Part shown: piece after piece, positions 7,563 to 15,146 of the stretch
Position numbering within the stretch: position 1 is the first letter of the stretch
How the letters are laid out: every line of letters starts with the position of its first letter
Assembly: GCA_902605135.1 (NCBI GenBank)
Contig: CACLBK010000009.1
Span: 1 to 38,298 of the forward strand
Direction: 5' to 3'
Source: an uncultured Alphaproteobacteria bacterium
GTDB lineage: Bacteria; Pseudomonadota; Alphaproteobacteria; HIMB59; GCA-002718135
Length of the DNA: 38,298 bases
The notes under the pieces: generated by a model
What the model was told of the DNA's origin: nothing
Seen by the model: the letters and a program-made list of their open reading frames with translations, nothing else
Databases searched by the model: none
Made by a program: the position numbers and the translations under genes

Positions 7563-9422
7563 ATGGCAGAAAAAACTAAAGAAAATTTAACATTTCAAGC
7601 TGAAGTCAGTAAGCTTTTAGATCTTGTTGCTAATTCCCTTTATAGTGAAAGGGAAATATTTCTAAGAGAACTAATATCTAATTCAGCTGATGCCTGCGAA
7701 AAATTAAGATATCAATCACTTTCCAAAAAAAATCTTTTGAAAGATGAAAAGGATTTAAAAATTAATATCAGAGTTTCAAAAAAGAAAAAAATTATTGAAA
7801 TTGAAGATAATGGAATTGGAATGTCAAAAAATGAACTTATTGATAATTTAGGAACTATAGCGAGATCAGGTACTAGTAAGTTTATTGAAGCAATGAAAAA
7901 TAAAAAAAGCAACGATATTTCTGCAATTGGACAGTTTGGTGTTGGTTTTTATTCCTCATATATGGTTGCAGATAATGTTGAAGTGCTTTCTAAAGATGCA
8001 GAAAATGAAGAAACAAATCTTTGGTCATCTAATGGAAAAGAAAATTATACTATTGAAGAAGCCAAAAAAGATAAAAGAGGCACTTGTATAACTCTAGATA
8101 TCAAGAAAGATGCTGATGAATTTTTGGATTCATTTCGTTTAAGATCAATTATAACAAAATACTCAAATTATATTCCTTTTCCAATTTATCTTAAGGACCT
8201 TGATGATAAAGAAAAAGAAGAAAAAATAAATGAAGGTAGTCCATTATGGCTAAAAGATAAAAAAGATATAAAAGAGGAAGACTATAAGCAATTTTATAAT
8301 AATATTTCATTTAACTTTGATGATCCCTTAAAAACTATCCATTATAACGCTGAGGGTGTAATAAGTTATAAGGCTTTACTTTATTTTCCTACAAATCAAC
8401 CTATGGATTTATTCAATGCTGATAGGAAAAATAAAATAAAATTATATGTTCAAAAAGTTTTTATCACTGATGATTGTGAAGACATAATTCCTAATTGGTT
8501 ACGTTTTATTCCAGGAGTAGTCGACTCACAAGATATTTCTCTCAATATAAGTAGAGAAATGCTTCAAAATAATCCTATTATTACAAAAATAAAAAAAGGT
8601 ATTACAAATAAAATTTTAAGTGAAATTGATAGCTTGGCTAAGAAAGAAAAGGATAAATTTGAGACATTTTGGAATAATTTTGGTCCTGTTCTAAAAGAAG
8701 GGTTATACGAACATAATGATCATCATGAAAAAATCCTACCGCTATTGAGATTTGAAAATTCTTTAAATGATAAAAAAATATCTCTTGAAGAGTACACTAA
8801 ATTAATGGCTAAAGATCAAAAAGAAATTTATTATTTTGCTAATACTGATAAGGATCATATTAAAAACTCCCCTCAATTAGAAGTTTTCACTGATAAAAAG
8901 ATACCAGTTTTGTTTATGGTTGATGCAGTAGATGAGTTTTGGATACAAAATGTAAATAAATTTAAAGATTTAGAATTTAAATCAATAACCAAAGGTAAGG
9001 TTGATGTTTCAAAAGTTGGTGAAAAATCAAGTAAGAAAGACGAAGATAAAAAAGAAGTAGATAGTAAAATCAATGATTTAATCAACATACTTAAAACAGA
9101 GCTTAAAGAGACAATATCTGATGTTATTGTATCTAAGAGATTAACCAAAAGCCCAATTCTGCTTGTTGCTGAAGAAGCTGGTATGGATATAAATATGGAA
9201 AAACTGATGAAAATGCATAATCAAAAAACTCCTGTTTCGAAAAAGATACTTGAAATTAATCCTAACCATCCGATGATTATAAATTTATCACAAAATTTAA
9301 CAAAAATTGACCATAAAAAAGCTTCAAATTTAATTTTAGATCAAGCTAATATATTAGATGGTAACATTCTCTCAAATCCATCAGCTTACTTAGAAAATTT
9401 AACAGAAATTTTTATTAAGTAA
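7563..9422 (+). CDS. htpG: Molecular chaperone HtpG (bacterial Hsp90)
   Basis: ATP-dependent cytoplasmic chaperone acting on late folding intermediates. The full 619 residues match the bacterial length. The N-terminal ATPase domain shows FLRELISNSADACEKLRY (with the ATP-contacting Glu and Asn), IEDNGIGM (adenine-binding Asp) and GQFGVGFYSSYMVAD (lid glycine motif). The middle domain holds SLNISREMLQNNP with the gamma-phosphate-sensing Arg, and the last roughly 110 residues form the dimerisation domain. Transcribed alone; the divergent 101-base region with the SLT lipoprotein must hold its promoter, though I found no convincing heat-shock-type promoter. Its 3' end overlaps serA by eight bases, tail to tail. 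Confidence 0.98.
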   Translation: MAEKTKENLTFQAEVSKLLDLVANSLYSEREIFLRELISNSADACEKLRYQSLSKKNLLKDEKDLKINIRVSKKKKIIEIEDNGIGMSKNELIDNLGTIARSGTSKFIEAMKNKKSNDISAIGQFGVGFYSSYMVADNVEVLSKDAENEETNLWSSNGKENYTIEEAKKDKRGTCITLDIKKDADEFLDSFRLRSIITKYSNYIPFPIYLKDLDDKEKEEKINEGSPLWLKDKKDIKEEDYKQFYNNISFNFDDPLKTIHYNAEGVISYKALLYFPTNQPMDLFNADRKNKIKLYVQKVFITDDCEDIIPNWLRFIPGVVDSQDISLNISREMLQNNPIITKIKKGITNKILSEIDSLAKKEKDKFETFWNNFGPVLKEGLYEHNDHHEKILPLLRFENSLNDKKISLEEYTKLMAKDQKEIYYFANTDKDHIKNSPQLEVFTDKKIPVLFMVDAVDEFWIQNVNKFKDLEFKSITKGKVDVSKVGEKSSKKDEDKKEVDSKINDLINILKTELKETISDVIVSKRLTKSPILLVAEEAGMDINMEKLMKMHNQKTPVSKKILEINPNHPMIINLSQNLTKIDHKKASNLILDQANILDGNILSNPSAYLENLTEIFIK

Positions 9423-10353
9423 CTGAATTTATTATTTTTTTATTATTAAAAAATTCAACAAATTGATTAGCGACCATTTCTGCTACAACTATTTGTGCTT
9501 CATCAGTAGAAGCAGCAATATGTGGAGTTAAAATTATATTATCTAAATTATAAAACCCACTTTCTTCCAAAGGCTCATTTTTAAAAACATCTAATGCAGC
9601 GCCTTGAATTTCTTTTTTTTCTAGAGCATTTTTAAGATCATCTTCATCAACTAAGTTACCTCTAGCAGTATTGATAATGATACAATTTTTTTTCATCATT
9701 GATAAATGATTTTTATTCATAATGGGGTTACCATCTTTACTGGGTTTACAGTGAAATGAAATTATATCTGAATATTTAATAATCTCATCGATAGAACAAG
9801 AATTATATTCAGGAAATCTATCCTTAATTGTTTCAAAATATGAAGAAAATATTGAAACTTTCATTCCCAATACATTTGATATTTCTGCAACTCTTTTGCC
9901 TACATTACCAAAACCTACGATACCAATTTTTTTACCTTTAATTTCATTTCCCTTTAATTTCTTTTTTTCCCAAAGACCCTTATGAGTTGTTTCATTTGCA
10001 GCAGTAATTTTTCTTAGTAATGCAAAAATTAAACCAATTGTATGTTCTGCTGTAGCATTTGTATTGCCTCCTGGAGTATTCATTACAATAATATTTTTAT
10101 TTTTAGCAGCCTCCACATCAACATTATCTACTCCTGCTCCTGCCCTACCTATAATTTTTAAATTTGAAAGAGAATCAATTGTGTCTTTTCGCACTTTAGT
10201 TGCTGAACGAATGATTAAACCATCATAATTATCAATTATTTTTTTTAATTCTTCGGGAGATAAGTTTGTTTTTGTATCAACTGAAATATTATTCTTTGTT
10301 AAAATTTCAGATGCGATACTATCTAGTGGATCTGATATTAGTACTCTAGGCAT
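9415..10353 (-). CDS. serA: D-3-phosphoglycerate dehydrogenase, short form
   Basis: First enzyme of serine synthesis: 3-phosphoglycerate to 3-phosphohydroxypyruvate with NAD+. About 312 residues, so it lacks the C-terminal ACT (and intervening) domains of long SerA and is probably not feedback-inhibited by serine through an ACT domain. Visible elements are the Rossmann loop GIVGFGNVGKRVA, the Arg in INTARGNLVDEDDL, the acidic residue in LDVFKNEPLEESGF and the catalytic His in ILTPHIAASTDEA. I place the start at 10353 (MPRVLISDPLD), where ATGCCTAG overlaps the serC stop by eight bases; the open frame continues eleven codons further up, but inside serC. Last gene of the trpB2-DUF1015-serC-serA run. 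Confidence 0.95.
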   Translation of the reverse strand: MPRVLISDPLDSIASEILTKNNISVDTKTNLSPEELKKIIDNYDGLIIRSATKVRKDTIDSLSNLKIIGRAGAGVDNVDVEAAKNKNIIVMNTPGGNTNATAEHTIGLIFALLRKITAANETTHKGLWEKKKLKGNEIKGKKIGIVGFGNVGKRVAEISNVLGMKVSIFSSYFETIKDRFPEYNSCSIDEIIKYSDIISFHCKPSKDGNPIMNKNHLSMMKKNCIIINTARGNLVDEDDLKNALEKKEIQGAALDVFKNEPLEESGFYNLDNIILTPHIAASTDEAQIVVAEMVANQFVEFFNNKKIINSVT

Positions 10354-11509
10354 GTTTTGATTTAATTTCTGAATAAGCCCAATCAATCCAAGGTAAAACT
10401 AATTCTACATCTGAAGTTTGAACAGTTCCTCCAGCCCATATTCTAAAAGAGGGTGGTGCTTTGGGATATCCATTACAATCAAATCCAACATTATTTTCAG
10501 AAAGTAACTTGCAAATATCGGCCATTACAGCTCTTTGACTACTTTCATCTTTATTAGTAAACCAATCTTCAATAATTTTAAAAGTTATTCCAGTATTTGA
10601 AATATAATTCTCATCTTCAATTTCAGATAAAAAAGTAACCCAATCTCTCTCATTAATCCATTCTCGAATTTTTTGTAAAGAGTTCTGAGATTTGGAGATT
10701 AACGAATTTAAACCTCCTTGAGAAGAAACCCAGTTTAAAGAATCAATAATATCCTCAACGCATATCATGGAAGGTGTATTAATTGTATTACCTTCAAAGA
10801 TACCTTTTATTAATTTTTGTTTTTCAGCTAATCTAAATAATTTTGGAACTGGCCAACTAGGTGTAAAACTTTCTAATCTTTCAACAACGCGTGGAGAAAT
10901 TGCTATCATTCCATGCGCAGCTTCTCCTCCAAGTATTTTTTGCCAAGACCAGGTTATAACATCACATTTATTATAATCTATTGGCATACCAAAGATTGCT
11001 GAAGTAGCATCACAAATAGTTAGACCTTTTCTGTCATCAGGTATCCAATCTCCATTAGGAACTTTGACACCAGAAGTTGTCCCATTCCATGTAAAAATTA
11101 CATCATTATCAAAATTGACTTTGCTAAGGTCAGGTAGTTTGCCATAATCTTCTTCATGAATATTTAAATTATCTAATTTTAATTCACTAATTGCATCTAT
11201 TACCCAATCTTTACCAAAATTTTCCCACGCAAGAATATCAACTCCCGTTTTACCTAATAAGCACCACATAGCTGCCTCTAAAGCACCAGTATTTGATCCA
11301 GGCATTATACCCAATAAATAATCATCAGGTAATTTTAGAATATCTTTCGATTTATCAATTGCTTCTTTTAGTCTTGCTTTACATTCAACAGATCTATGAG
11401 ATCTGCCAGTTAAAGCATTACTCAAAACAGATATATCCCAGCCTGGTCTTTTTGAGGTTGGGCCACTTGAAAAATTTGGATTGTTAGGTTTTGTATTAGG
11501 TTTATTCAT
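10346..11509 (-). CDS. serC: Phosphoserine aminotransferase
   Basis: PLP-dependent class V aminotransferase converting 3-phosphohydroxypyruvate and glutamate to O-phospho-L-serine and 2-oxoglutarate. About 387 residues, the longer alphaproteobacterial type. The N terminus NPNFSSGPTSKRPGW and the PLP-lysine region ITWSWQKILGGEAAHGM are typical, as are the phosphate-contacting GNTINTPSM and the C-terminal SFRIWAGGTV. I chose the start at 11509, where ATGAATAA overlaps the stop of the DUF1015 gene by eight bases; an in-frame ATG six codons earlier has no better ribosome-binding site. It overlaps serA by eight bases in turn, so DUF1015, SerC and SerA are likely made in concert. No serB is in the window. 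Confidence 0.95.
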   Translation of the reverse strand: MNKPNTKPNNPNFSSGPTSKRPGWDISVLSNALTGRSHRSVECKARLKEAIDKSKDILKLPDDYLLGIMPGSNTGALEAAMWCLLGKTGVDILAWENFGKDWVIDAISELKLDNLNIHEEDYGKLPDLSKVNFDNDVIFTWNGTTSGVKVPNGDWIPDDRKGLTICDATSAIFGMPIDYNKCDVITWSWQKILGGEAAHGMIAISPRVVERLESFTPSWPVPKLFRLAEKQKLIKGIFEGNTINTPSMICVEDIIDSLNWVSSQGGLNSLISKSQNSLQKIREWINERDWVTFLSEIEDENYISNTGITFKIIEDWFTNKDESSQRAVMADICKLLSENNVGFDCNGYPKAPPSFRIWAGGTVQTSDVELVLPWIDWAYSEIKSKHA

Positions 11510-12719
11510 ATGCTTTTTCAAACTCATAAACTACTAAGCCATCTAAGGGTTTTGGATCAAACCATGTTGATTTAGGAGGCATAGTCAAATTTTTACTCGC
11601 GACCGTAATAACATCACTTATTGAAGATGGGAAGATAGAAAATGCCACACTATCAGTATTTTCATCAACTTTTTTTTCTAAAGCTGCCAAACCATGACAT
11701 CCAGCAATAAATCTTATTCTTTCATCATTGTTAACATCAGAAATATTTAAATATTTTTTGAAAACGAAATTGTTTAAAATATTAATATCTAGTGTATCAA
11801 TAAAATTATCAGTTTTTAATTCGGTTTTAAAATACAATGAATACCATTTTTTTTCATGATACATTCCAAATTGTTTATTTGATTGAGGTTTGAAAGGGTT
11901 TTTTTCATTTTTTATTTCGAAGTTTTCAGAAAGAATTTCTAAAAACTTTTCTTCACTCAAGCCATTTAAATCTTTAACAACTCTATTATAGTCAAATATT
12001 TTAGCTTCATCACTTGGAAACGCCGCTATCATAAAATCTTCCTGTAAAATATTTTTATTATAATTTAATTCTCCAATAATTTTCATTGCTCCCATTCTAT
12101 GATGTCCATCAGCAATGTAAAAATTATCTACTTCATTGATAAAAACAGAAGATAGCTTTTCAATGAAAGATTTATCAGAAACACACCAAAGTTTATGAAT
12201 AGATTTATCGAAGCTTTCAAAATCATAATTTGGAGTATTTGATATTATAGAGGATAACAAATCTTTTATCTTATTATTTTTTTTATATACTACATAAATA
12301 GGACCAATTTGTGTTTTGATATTCAGCATTTGCTCTGCTCTTTCTCTCATCCTTGTCTCATATATTTTTTCATGTGCTTTAATTTTTTCATCTACAAAAT
12401 CTGAGATTTTAGAAAGAGATAAGAATCCTAGTTGTGTATGGCCTTTAAATTCAATTTGATATATGTAATAAAATAATTCATTATCTTTTTTAATTACATC
12501 ATTTACTTTCATTTCTTTAAAATGCGATTTTGCTTCTAAAAGAGTATCTTCCTCTTTTAATTGCCCAACGGGATTCAAAATTTTTAAATAATTCCAATAA
12601 TTATTTTTTTTAAATATTTCTATATTTTCAATACTTAAATGATCAGTAGAAGGAGCAATTAAATTTTTCGCATCTTCGTTGTAAGGACGTGTTCCTTTAA
12701 AAGGTTTAATTTCAACCAT
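11502..12719 (-). CDS. DUF1015 family protein, linked to serine metabolism
   Basis: A 405-residue cytoplasmic protein of the DUF1015 family. The N terminus (IKPFKGTRPYNEDAKNLIAP) and the invariant motif YIADGHHRMGAM (about residues 201-212) are diagnostic. The DGHHR motif resembles that of ParB/sulfiredoxin-fold free serine kinases, and I recall, without being able to verify it here, that a pyrophosphate-dependent serine kinase activity has been reported for relatives. Family members frequently neighbour serA and serC, as here: it overlaps serC by eight bases and follows trpB2 by 46. An AAAGGTG stretch about eleven bases before the ATG may serve for ribosome binding. A role in making or using O-phosphoserine is the best inference; the reaction is not established from this sequence. 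Confidence 0.85.
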   Translation of the reverse strand: MVEIKPFKGTRPYNEDAKNLIAPSTDHLSIENIEIFKKNNYWNYLKILNPVGQLKEEDTLLEAKSHFKEMKVNDVIKKDNELFYYIYQIEFKGHTQLGFLSLSKISDFVDEKIKAHEKIYETRMRERAEQMLNIKTQIGPIYVVYKKNNKIKDLLSSIISNTPNYDFESFDKSIHKLWCVSDKSFIEKLSSVFINEVDNFYIADGHHRMGAMKIIGELNYNKNILQEDFMIAAFPSDEAKIFDYNRVVKDLNGLSEEKFLEILSENFEIKNEKNPFKPQSNKQFGMYHEKKWYSLYFKTELKTDNFIDTLDINILNNFVFKKYLNISDVNNDERIRFIAGCHGLAALEKKVDENTDSVAFSIFPSSISDVITVASKNLTMPPKSTWFDPKPLDGLVVYEFEKAYE

Positions 12720-12765
12720 AATAAAGAAACACCTTTAATTAAATAAAAAAAAATTTAAACTTAAA

Positions 12766-14130
12766 TTATGCTACTTCTGGTATTTGAGAAATAGATTTAC
12801 CTATTCCATCATCATCAATAACATCATCAGCCATTGAGCCATTTAGATAATCATCATAAGCTGACATATCAAAATATCCATGACCACATAAATTAAAGAG
12901 AATAGTTTTTGACTCACCTTTTTCTTTACATTCTAAAGCTGCGTCAATAGCACCTTTGATTGCATGATTTCCTTCTGGAGCAGGAATAATTCCTTCTTGT
13001 TTTGCAAACGTTAACCCTGCCTCAAAGCAATCTTTTTGACCGTAAGCCTTTGCTCTCATAAGACCTAGCTCATATAAATGACTTAAATGATAAGACATGC
13101 CATGGTATCTTAATCCACCAGAGTGGTTAGCTGGTGGTAAGAAATCAGATCCAAGAGTATGCATTTTAATTAATGGAGTCATTTTTGCCATATCACCATG
13201 GTCATATGCATATTTACCTTTCGTAAATGAAGGACATGATGCAGGCTCACATCCAATAATATCAATTTTTTGACCACCTCTTAATTGTTGTCCTAAAAAT
13301 GGAAACATTAATCCAGAAAGATTACTACCACCACCTGTACAACCTACAATTATATCAGGATAATCACCAGCCATCTCCATTTGCATAATAGCTTCATTAC
13401 CATTTATAGTTTGATGCATTAATACATGACCTAAAACACTTCCAAGTGAGTATTTTGCTTTGCCTCCACTTTTAACTGTTGCTTCTATTGCTTCTGATAT
13501 TGCAATACCTAAGCTACCTGGGTTATCAGGATTTTCTGATAATAGCTTGTTACCAAAATCGGTTAAATTTGATGGACTAGCATGACAGTTAGCCCCAAAA
13601 GTTTGCATCATTAATTTTCTATATGGTTTATGATCAAAGCTAACCTTAACCATAAAAACCTCAATATCTATTCCAAAAATTTGACCTGCATACGCTAGGG
13701 AACTACCCCATTGGCCAGCACCTGTCTCAGTAAAAATTTTACTTATTCCCTCTTCTTTATTAAAAAATGCTTGAGGGACTGCAGTATTTGGTTTGTGACT
13801 TCCAGTAGGACTAACACCTTCATATTTATAATAAATTTTAGCTGGTGTATCTAAAAATTTTTCTAATCTTCTTGCTCGAAATAATGGAGAGGGTCTCCAT
13901 TGTTTATAAACTTCTCTTACTGGGTCAGGTATTTCTATTTCTCTTTCAGTAGAAACCTCCTGCATTATTAGACCCATTGGAAATAAAGGAGCAAAGTCAT
14001 CAGGACCTGCTGGTTGTTTAGTTCCAGGATGTAAGGGAGGTGGTGGTGGACTTGGTAAGTCTGCGTTGATATTATACCAAAACTTTGGGGCTTTATTTTC
14101 TTCAAGTAAGTATTTAATTGAGTCGCTCAT
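12766..14130 (-). CDS. trpB2: TrpB2-type tryptophan synthase beta-like enzyme
   Basis: PLP enzyme of the stand-alone TrpB2 branch, 454 residues, longer than the ~400 of TrpB1 because of an N-terminal extension. The PLP lysine is Lys113 in SPTGSHKPN, the catalytic Glu is Glu135 in TETGAGQWG (TrpB1 has TETGAGQHG-like sequence), and the PLP phosphate loop is GCTGGGSN (263-270). No trpA is adjacent, as expected for TrpB2. Characterised archaeal TrpB2 enzymes have been described as making tryptophan from indole and O-phospho-L-serine; the location here upstream of DUF1015, serC and serA in the same orientation agrees with phosphoserine as co-substrate. It is divergent from a possible 28-residue membrane peptide. 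No clear Shine-Dalgarno precedes the ATG. Confidence 0.93.
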   Translation of the reverse strand: MSDSIKYLLEENKAPKFWYNINADLPSPPPPPLHPGTKQPAGPDDFAPLFPMGLIMQEVSTEREIEIPDPVREVYKQWRPSPLFRARRLEKFLDTPAKIYYKYEGVSPTGSHKPNTAVPQAFFNKEEGISKIFTETGAGQWGSSLAYAGQIFGIDIEVFMVKVSFDHKPYRKLMMQTFGANCHASPSNLTDFGNKLLSENPDNPGSLGIAISEAIEATVKSGGKAKYSLGSVLGHVLMHQTINGNEAIMQMEMAGDYPDIIVGCTGGGSNLSGLMFPFLGQQLRGGQKIDIIGCEPASCPSFTKGKYAYDHGDMAKMTPLIKMHTLGSDFLPPANHSGGLRYHGMSYHLSHLYELGLMRAKAYGQKDCFEAGLTFAKQEGIIPAPEGNHAIKGAIDAALECKEKGESKTILFNLCGHGYFDMSAYDDYLNGSMADDVIDDDGIGKSISQIPEVA

Positions 14131-14174: not shown

Positions 14175-14261
14175 ATGAAATACTTTAACTTCAAAAATGT
14201 GTCTATTTTTATTGCTGCTTTATTAGTATTATATGTTTTTTACGGATATTTTACTCATTGA
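14175..14261 (+). CDS. Possible 28-residue single-helix membrane peptide
   Basis: A short open frame, ATG at 14175 to TGA at 14259-14261, encodes a basic N terminus (MKYFNFKN) followed by one hydrophobic helix of about 18 residues and a short tail ending in Thr-His. It begins 45 bases upstream of the divergent trpB2 start and overlaps the tail of the DMT transporter gene by 33 bases. The helix-like composition and the otherwise empty gap are the only support; no ribosome-binding site is visible and the AT-rich sequence could produce this by chance. Confidence 0.22.
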   Translation: MKYFNFKNVSIFIAALLVLYVFYGYFTH

Positions 14262-15146
14262 TTTTTTTTGCCCTACAAACAGACCAATAAAAACTAAAAT
14301 AATTCCAATTACAGAACTAAATAGTATTTGTTCAGAAAGGAATATGAATCCCCATATTAAAGCAAAAACAGGAATTAAATAAGCAACATAAGATAAGAAA
14401 ACCGGACCAGATTGTTTAACTATATGATAGCGCATTTGAAATGCTATTGCTGTTGGAAAAACACCTAAATAAATAATAGAAATTAAAGAAATTTCATTAA
14501 TATTATTCTCATAATTGATAAAATCGTAAAATAAAAATGGTAATGATATTATCGCTCCAAACAATGTAGCAAAAGTAGTAATTGAAATAGGACTTAATTT
14601 CTTTAATTTATTATAAGCAGCAATATTTGAAATCATGTAACCAAATGCTGCTATAATCACAAAAATTTTTGCTAAAGTACTAATATAGTTTTCATCTTGA
14701 AAATTAAATTTACTTATATCTAAAATAAATATGATACCTACAAAACCTATAATTATTGATAAAAATTTAACCCAAGTAAACTTATCGTCTGAAGTTAATA
14801 CATGAGACATTAGTAATGTTATTAAGGGACCAACTGACATTAATAACCCTGCAGTAGAAGAGGGAATATATTGTTCAGCCCAACTAATCAGATAGAATGG
14901 TAAAAAATTTCCAGAAATGCCTATAAAAGAAAGAATTAAAACTAATTCGAGATTAAATTTAGGATGTTTGTTATATGAATAATATAAAATAATTAAGAAT
15001 ATTGATGCTATAATCAATCTTAAGGAGGCAATACTTGTAGGAGTAAAACTAGATAGGCAAATTTTAATAACAAAAAAAGAAGATCCCCAAATAGCAGCTA
15101 AAATTATAAGAAGTATTAGATTATTTGATAATAATTTATTTAACAA
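14229..15146 (-). CDS. EamA/DMT-superfamily transporter
   Basis: A 305-residue inner-membrane protein with ten predicted helices in two EamA repeats. The repeat hallmarks are present: AAIWGSSFFVIK near the N terminus and, in the second half, GAIISLPFLFYDF and PVFALIWGFIFLSEQI before the last helices. Members export amino acids or other metabolites; the substrate cannot be predicted. The start appears to be TTG at 15146, three bases past the stop of the 99-residue gene upstream, with no ATG nearby that keeps the first helix. Probably co-transcribed with that gene. Confidence 0.9.
   Translation of the reverse strand: MLNKLLSNNLILLIILAAIWGSSFFVIKICLSSFTPTSIASLRLIIASIFLIILYYSYNKHPKFNLELVLILSFIGISGNFLPFYLISWAEQYIPSSTAGLLMSVGPLITLLMSHVLTSDDKFTWVKFLSIIIGFVGIIFILDISKFNFQDENYISTLAKIFVIIAAFGYMISNIAAYNKLKKLSPISITTFATLFGAIISLPFLFYDFINYENNINEISLISIIYLGVFPTAIAFQMRYHIVKQSGPVFLSYVAYLIPVFALIWGFIFLSEQILFSSVIGIILVFIGLFVGQKKSMSKISVKNI

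Follow-up and report, generated by a model that had tools for sequence, protein, structure and literature searches.

The window, a stretch of 38,298 nucleotides (contig CACLBK010000009.1) from an uncultured alphaproteobacterium of the HIMB59 lineage, contains a run of four genes encoding TrpB2, a DUF1015 protein, SerC and SerA, all co-oriented on the minus strand. Based upon gene order and genome comparisons, the run is likely a complete serine operon in which DUF1015 would replace the phosphoserine phosphatase SerB and from which TrpB2 would branch to tryptophan. In this proposal SerA would make 3-phosphohydroxypyruvate, SerC would make O-phosphoserine, and DUF1015, as a non-orthologous replacement of SerB, would remove the phosphate to yield serine. 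TrpB2, encoded first, would join indole to O-phosphoserine (or serine) to form tryptophan, with the indole probably lost from a separate TrpA-TrpB1 complex or taken up by the cell. Judged from the comparisons below, the SerB-like behaviour of DUF1015 in genomes is a stronger discovery than the TrpB2 link. The parts of the run are as follows.

12766-14130, minus strand: TrpB2, stand-alone tryptophan synthase beta chain, 454 amino acids (TIGR01415, 607 bits, cut-off 519)
11502-12719, minus strand: DUF1015 protein, proposed SerB replacement, 405 amino acids (PF06245, 224 bits)
10346-11509, minus strand: serC, phosphoserine aminotransferase of the serC_2 type, 387 amino acids (TIGR01365, 520 bits, cut-off 448)
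9415-10353, minus strand: serA, phosphoglycerate dehydrogenase, short form, 312 amino acids (PF02826 and PF00389 above cut-offs)
11502-11509, minus strand: 8-base overlap ATGAATAA of the DUF1015 stop and the serC start
10346-10353, minus strand: 8-base overlap ATGCCTAG of the serC stop and the serA start

The first-pass annotation of this DNA had described four co-oriented genes, three of them joined by 8-base overlaps. The arrangement was confirmed (minus strand, 9415-14130); the two overlaps found join DUF1015, serC and serA only, and TrpB2 lies upstream of DUF1015 with a spacing of 46 bases. The open reading frame list places the serC start at an upstream ATG, 11527. Both SerA and SerC, as required for the phosphorylated serine pathway, are thus encoded in the window, with SerA scoring 324 bits against TIGR01327, below the full-length cut-off of 454, and aligning to positions 1-308 of the 525 in that model. 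Because this SerA is without the C-terminal part of the phosphoglycerate dehydrogenase model, it is not expected to have built-in feedback by serine. Counts from promoter and terminator scans were close to the shuffled expectation.

The window genome (G000), which is about 68% complete, gave no SerB match at E<=1e-3. The genome encodes glyA, and the suggested check for trpA and trpB1 located trpB1-trpA on another contig (L197). The lack of serB was considered as a sign that the run ends at O-phosphoserine; that reading was dropped in favour of DUF1015 as a probable SerB replacement. With SerB nearly absent from the window's order and DUF1015 probably in its place, the run would constitute a complete serine pathway plus TrpB2.

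DUF1015 and SerB in alphaproteobacterial genomes

DUF1015 probably performs the SerB step, the conversion of O-phosphoserine into serine. Across a class sample of 230 alphaproteobacterial genomes, with SerB called as TIGR00338 at E<=1e-20, DUF1015 was present in 23 and SerB in 132. SerB occurred in 0/23 genomes with DUF1015 and in 132/207 others (Fisher p = 5.7e-10), and in the SerC-positive subset of 179 genomes the values were 0/19 with DUF1015 and 125/160 without (p = 9e-12); both p-values treat genomes as independent although they are related. The 23 DUF1015 genomes span 17 families, two of which (f44 and f82) also include a sampled sister genome with SerB but without DUF1015. As a control, TrpB2 showed no SerB bias in the same sample (11/18 vs 121/212). 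Of the three control genomes with DUF1015, that of Thermotoga maritima lacks SerB at E<=1e-20. One of the alphaproteobacterial proteins (L095, G326:C7:14713-15408) is a very divergent DUF1015 of 84 bits, from a 1.0 Mb genome in which SerC gave no match.

Furthermore, the two families share a gene slot. The SerB slot was read in 20 of the 132 SerB loci, chosen for long contigs, with neighbours labelled by phmmer and slot genes identified from Pfam matches of proteins from L108, L103 and L086, to which the names hflK, hflC, degP, miaA, ilvI, ilvH and ilvC presumably apply. The complete order hflK-hflC-degP-serB-miaA-ilvI-ilvH-ilvC was present in 9 of the 20 loci, sometimes with intervening genes. 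In 17 loci miaA was beside serB or within about 1.5 kb of it, and in the remaining ones serB had degP-hflC-hflK (L233) or serC-serA (L229, L236) beside it. Among 20 alphaproteobacterial DUF1015 loci from outside the window's order (L086, L095, L097-L114), 13 have DUF1015 by miaA and/or degP (L086, L099-L109, L112). Seven of those 13 display the same full order, and an eighth, L086, has it with TrpB2 added. DUF1015 in the SerB slot looks like replacement in place, and in the window's order it occupies the other SerB position, by serC-serA as in L229 and L236. Exclusion (0/23) and slot occupation (13/20) together indicate that DUF1015 takes the place of SerB in genomes, with exceptions that carry both genes.

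Within the order itself, represented by 120 genomes (TrpB2 above cut-off in 96, DUF1015 above cut-off in 96), SerB above cut-off was detected in two genomes, and in 0/20 of the good ones. Extra SerB loci in the window's genus lie at G080:C1:165963-166595 and G117:C150:2343-2969, the latter genome comprising 170 contigs with 3% contamination. A literature search found no papers on HIMB59 with serine and amino acid biosynthesis.

DUF1015 in other phyla and its conserved motifs

No published function for DUF1015 (PF06245, which we take to be the same as COG4198) was found among the open-access papers searched. A wide scan using alignment A1 (18 rows, from Pfam searches plus the window protein) and one genome per species was limited to the best 80 of at least 580 confirmed loci, ranked by likeness to the window protein and therefore not a random sample; the 80 loci come from Bacillota, Bacteroidota and other phyla. 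In 42 of the 80, serA and/or serC lay within 3 kb of DUF1015 and in every case on its strand; 33 of these loci had both genes. Because the SerA and SerC models derive from these same hits, divergent variants may have escaped them, and the SerC labels of L143, L191 and L196 are weak. A serA-DUF1015 arrangement with a SerC-type gene was present in Clostridium and Enterococcus (L191 and L196, with weak SerC scores, and L180).

In 450 gut genomes of diverse Firmicutes, SerA and SerC were reported together with none of four SerB types, and such organisms were tentatively named prototrophs (PMC9026213). C. perfringens and E. faecalis were described as growing without serine, with only low-confidence SerB candidates (PMC7311316). 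Furthermore, Roseburia was reported to have serA and serC without serB (PMC7478625), and the phosphoserine phosphatase of Desulfovibrio was reported as not found (PMC5764234).

Regulatory leaders were sought with Rfam in 22 DUF1015 loci, most of them titled as Bacillota, and in five TrpB2 loci (L131, L213, L215, L218, L219). T-box triplets were read directly after the GAA/GAU of the specifier loop, which we take to be the specifier position. Upstream of serA/DUF1015 operons a T-box was present in 3/22 loci (L170, L191, L196), with the specifier UCC (serine), and these operons should therefore respond to serine shortage. Upstream of TrpB2 a T-box was present in 3/5 loci (L131, L215, L219), all from Firmicutes, with the specifier UGG (tryptophan), and these TrpB2 genes should therefore respond to tryptophan shortage. 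A glycine riboswitch was not found at the Rfam gathering score in the window region or the 22 DUF1015 loci. Published precedents comprise a T-box that precedes a trpB-like gene of Dehalococcoides (PMC2494555) and, from metagenomes, glycine riboswitches ahead of COG4198 genes (PMC2211319).

Two conserved motifs of the window DUF1015 protein are candidate places to look for its chemistry.

12096-12113, minus strand: A-DGHHR motif, residues 203-208, invariant in the 18 rows of A1
11550-11582, minus strand: C-terminal MPPKSTWFDPK motif, residues 380-390, with 9 of 11 positions unchanged across all 18 A1 rows

In a larger alignment (A2, 65 rows) the invariance of these motifs arises partly by construction, since the scan patterns contained DGHHR and MPPK-TWF. 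DUF1015 was the only Pfam family above cut-off in the window protein, with no NCBIfam match at E<=1e-3 and no HAD or histidine-phosphatase match in Pfam at E<=1. Weak ParB-like matches below cut-off were obtained at E<=1 (ParBc_2 in 7/65 and DndB in 2/65 DUF1015 rows), and a match to PDB entry 1vk1 covered the DGHHR motif at a non-significant E of 0.49. A DGHHR-type motif is presumably also a feature of SerK, and we infer that the motif may recall the ParB/SerK fold. In PMC12704722, "DU1015", read as DUF1015, is listed among domains fused to the ParB-CTPase fold.

TrpB2 and O-phosphoserine

A link of TrpB2 with O-phosphoserine metabolism is supported by its genomic neighbourhoods, and gene order likewise supports a putative O-phosphoserine branch point. 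In family f1, to which the window belongs, DUF1015 directly adjoined TrpB2 in 55 of the 56 genomes with TrpB2 above cut-off, spanning six genera (adjacency in f1 and in its sister family f2 was counted by reading of hit tables). The lone exception, G113, has TrpB2 at a contig start and gave no DUF1015; in two further f1 genomes (G044, G114) DUF1015 is cut by a contig end and TrpB2 above cut-off is absent. Identity between the f1 genera compared was 77-87% for TrpB2 and 58-71% for DUF1015, and loci read from four genera (L092, L096, L115, L116) showed all four genes in this order. In G002, a one-contig genome and the sole f2 genome read for the trio, DUF1015-serC-serA is intact (L094) with TrpB2 elsewhere (L088); the serine trio thus either predates the TrpB2 link or is the more stable of the two.

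Similar associations were observed outside the order. TrpB2 occupied the serB/DUF1015 slot in 3/15 TrpB2-containing alphaproteobacteria (G120, G311, G313). The order in G120 is hflK-hflC-degP-TrpB2-(NYN gene)-serB-miaA-ilvIHC (L091, L241), placing TrpB2 one gene from serB, and that in G313 is degP-DUF1015-TrpB2-miaA (L086). In G311 the front of TrpB2 lies at a contig end after hflK-hflC-degP (L093), and an end piece lies at the end of another contig, one small frame from serB-miaA (L240). TrpB2 and DUF1015 are also adjacent on a Rhodospirillaceae contig (L127), and in Coprocola (L131) a divergently oriented TrpB2 lies 3.9 kb away from DUF1015, with one gene between it and serC. Among 50 DUF1015 genomes searched, TrpB2 was above cut-off in 22 and within the fetched DUF1015 flank in three (L117, a close window relative, L127 and L131). 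The TrpB2 tree did not separate the alphaproteobacterial lineages and is therefore compatible with either one or several origins of the TrpB2-DUF1015 pair. In a separate observation, an 855-residue frame in G302 (L087:6456-9023) has TrpB2 as its C-terminal half, preceded by about 430 residues without a Pfam match, and may be a fusion or a wrong start.

The best PDB matches of the window TrpB2 are the TrpB2-like chains 6hul, 4qys and 6hte. K113 and E135, which we take to be the pyridoxal phosphate (PLP) lysine and the catalytic glutamate, are kept in 59/59 TrpB2 rows and in the TrpB1 of the same genome. A third position differs between the two proteins.

13108-13110, minus strand: codon of Arg341 of TrpB2 (GGLRYHG); Asp in the TrpB1 of the same genome

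This position is presumably the published determinant of O-phosphoserine choice; Busch in 2014 reportedly named an Asp-to-Arg residue in that role. It is Arg in 59/59 different TrpB2 rows, many from the window's order, and hence the window operon is not special in that residue. The first-pass annotation had proposed direct use of O-phosphoserine by TrpB2. The metabolic link gained support from family conservation and four further lineages, and TrpB2 may draw on O-phosphoserine directly in the window organism. TrpB2 families are treated in PMC1854888 and PMC2395257, and as of 2007 no conserved trpB2 neighbourhood other than the trp operon had been found (PMC1854888).

Both ends of the run adjoin other genes, one of which is possibly part of it.

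14229-15146, minus strand: EamA-family permease (PF00892), 98 bases upstream of TrpB2

The permease, possibly in the same run as TrpB2, is weakly similar to aromatic amino acid and O-acetylserine/cysteine exporters. An EamA permease also lies upstream of TrpB2 in G001 (96% identical) and G005 (53%), whereas in G105 and G009 the gene directly upstream encodes a rhodanese. EamA was rejected as a conserved TrpB2 partner, given the rhodanese gene in two genera and a TrpB2-side permease in G002 without similarity at 1e-5. Downstream, serA and a convergent 619-residue frame (7563-9422), judged HtpG-like by eye, overlap tail to tail by 8 bases (9415-9422).

Alternative explanations and known systems

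Several observations weigh against the proposed roles of DUF1015 and TrpB2. Both genes occur together in the control genomes of Bacteroides ihuae and Methanosarcina acetivorans and in two genomes of the window's order (G080 and G117, with SerB above cut-off). Among the 80 wide-scan genomes, SerB was above cut-off in four (G360, G361, G377, G419) and at E<=1e-20 below the cut-off in two more (G357, G366), and a search at E<=1e-5 gave SerB matches in 37 of 50, nearly all weak and of HAD type. In the 20 alphaproteobacterial DUF1015 loci from outside the order, DUF1015 was outside the slot in seven (L095, L097, L098, L110, L111, L113, L114), and serA or serC was near it in 0/20 within the fetched flank. 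Four DUF1015 genomes of the class sample lack a SerC match. Furthermore, 35 of its 179 SerC-positive genomes have neither SerB (E<=1e-20) nor DUF1015; other solutions therefore exist, and a further phosphoserine step may exist there. PDB and Pfam profile comparisons gave no significant sequence similarity of DUF1015 to SerK or ParB. With regard to TrpB2, conservation of the neighbourhood, which the earlier annotation had made a point of refutation, held throughout f1 and was limited beyond it. Adjacency was 0/32 among f2 genomes with both TrpB2 and DUF1015 above cut-off (different contigs in 28; the same contig, 128-162 kb apart, in 4), and serC or serA was near TrpB2 in 0/15 other TrpB2 alphaproteobacteria within fetched flanks, some shortened by contig ends.

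It is rather unlikely that DUF1015 is instead a kinase of free serine like archaeal SerK, with the resulting O-phosphoserine feeding TrpB2 or a reversal of SerC-SerA to 3-phosphoglycerate. The DGHHR motif invariant in A1 and the weak ParB-like and 1vk1 matches are compatible with such a role, and a futile cycle of kinase and phosphatase would likewise disfavour SerB. In some archaea serK lies near SerA-type and aminotransferase genes, and SerK was suggested as the start of a route from serine to 3-phosphoglycerate (PMC5120207). Serine T-boxes on three operons, however, imply induction at serine shortage, the wrong direction for a serine consumer, and DUF1015 takes the slot of SerB; the tentatively prototrophic gut Firmicutes that have SerA and SerC but lack SerB (PMC9026213) also argue against a kinase, as does the serA-DUF1015 arrangement carried here by Clostridium and Enterococcus, genera that include serine-independent species (PMC7311316). 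DUF1015 as a regulator or accessory subunit, with an unrecognised HAD or histidine phosphatase performing the SerB step, is unlikely. The ParB/DndB group does contain regulators (PMC12704722), and most of the 50 genomes examined had weak HAD-type matches, but exclusion of SerB and occupation of its slot are not required of a regulator, and one and the same unrecognised phosphatase would need to accompany DUF1015 from phylum to phylum. The serine-producing direction is preferred for DUF1015 on the basis of its slot, its exclusion with SerB and the serine T-boxes.

For TrpB2 there is an appreciable, though lesser, chance that its place in the operon serves co-regulation with the supply of serine and nothing more, its co-substrate being serine, or that it has a different function, for example deamination of serine. 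TrpB2 of L131 has its own tryptophan T-box and is transcribed away from serC-serA-DUF1015, most TrpB2 genomes from outside the order have SerB, and no link of TrpB2 to DUF1015 is seen in the sister family. The TrpB2_o proteins were described as poor serine deaminases (PMC1854888). Evidence on the other side includes the description of TrpB2 enzymes as users of O-phosphoserine (Busch 2014, cited in PMC11917138). It also includes the recurrence of TrpB2 by an O-phosphoserine-consuming gene in lineages without nearby serC or serA. The Asp-to-Arg change in all 59 rows, presumably the determinant, points the same way. A chance neighbourhood in one small lineage is very unlikely: TrpB2 accompanies serC and serA only in f1 among the alphaproteobacteria read, and lies near DUF1015 or serB in few lineages, but the pair is kept in 55 of 56 genomes of six genera, and slot TrpB2 in three of 15 genomes, from three families, has a probability of about 5e-5 at an assumed rate of 0.5% each.

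On balance we lean towards DUF1015 being a new class of protein for conversion of O-phosphoserine into serine, neither a HAD protein nor a histidine phosphatase and perhaps of the ParB/SerK fold. It would stand in for the missing SerB of Clostridia, Bacteroidota, many proteobacteria and the window's order, and together with TrpB2 would form a branch point yielding serine and tryptophan from one phosphorylated intermediate. The last serine enzyme could not be named in hundreds of presumed serine-making genomes (PMC9026213, PMC7311316). If the proposal is true, one protein family could close much of this gap, correct many auxotrophy predictions and assign a function to a DUF. TrpB2 recurring by an O-phosphoserine-consuming enzyme would furthermore give bacterial genomic support for an O-phosphoserine-fed tryptophan route, which so far rests on enzyme work with TrpB2 proteins.

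The run resembles the phosphorylated serine pathway (SerA-SerC-SerB) in that SerA and SerC are present and adjacent and that three Firmicutes relatives have serine T-boxes. It differs in the short form of SerA and in having DUF1015 where no SerB was found. SerB2, SerB3, SerB4 and ThrH are histidine-phosphatase or HAD proteins, and the window DUF1015 matches neither in Pfam at E<=1. The likeness is that these proteins, too, are non-orthologous SerB replacements recognised from gene context or assay (PMC9026213 for SerB2, SerB3 and SerB4). Among SerK and SbnI, of ParB-like fold, SerK presumably shares a DGHHR-type motif with DUF1015, and in some archaea its gene lies in a comparable context with SerA-type and aminotransferase genes (PMC5120207), whereas no significant sequence similarity was found and the serine T-boxes and SerB slot argue for the opposite direction. 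Lastly, the window TrpB2 is like other TrpB2 synthases (TIGR01415, e.g. 4qys) in its score above cut-off, its catalytic Lys and Glu, its Arg at the Asp position of TrpB1 and its location outside the trp operon in a genome that also has trpB1-trpA, and is unlike them in being encoded in a putative serine operon.

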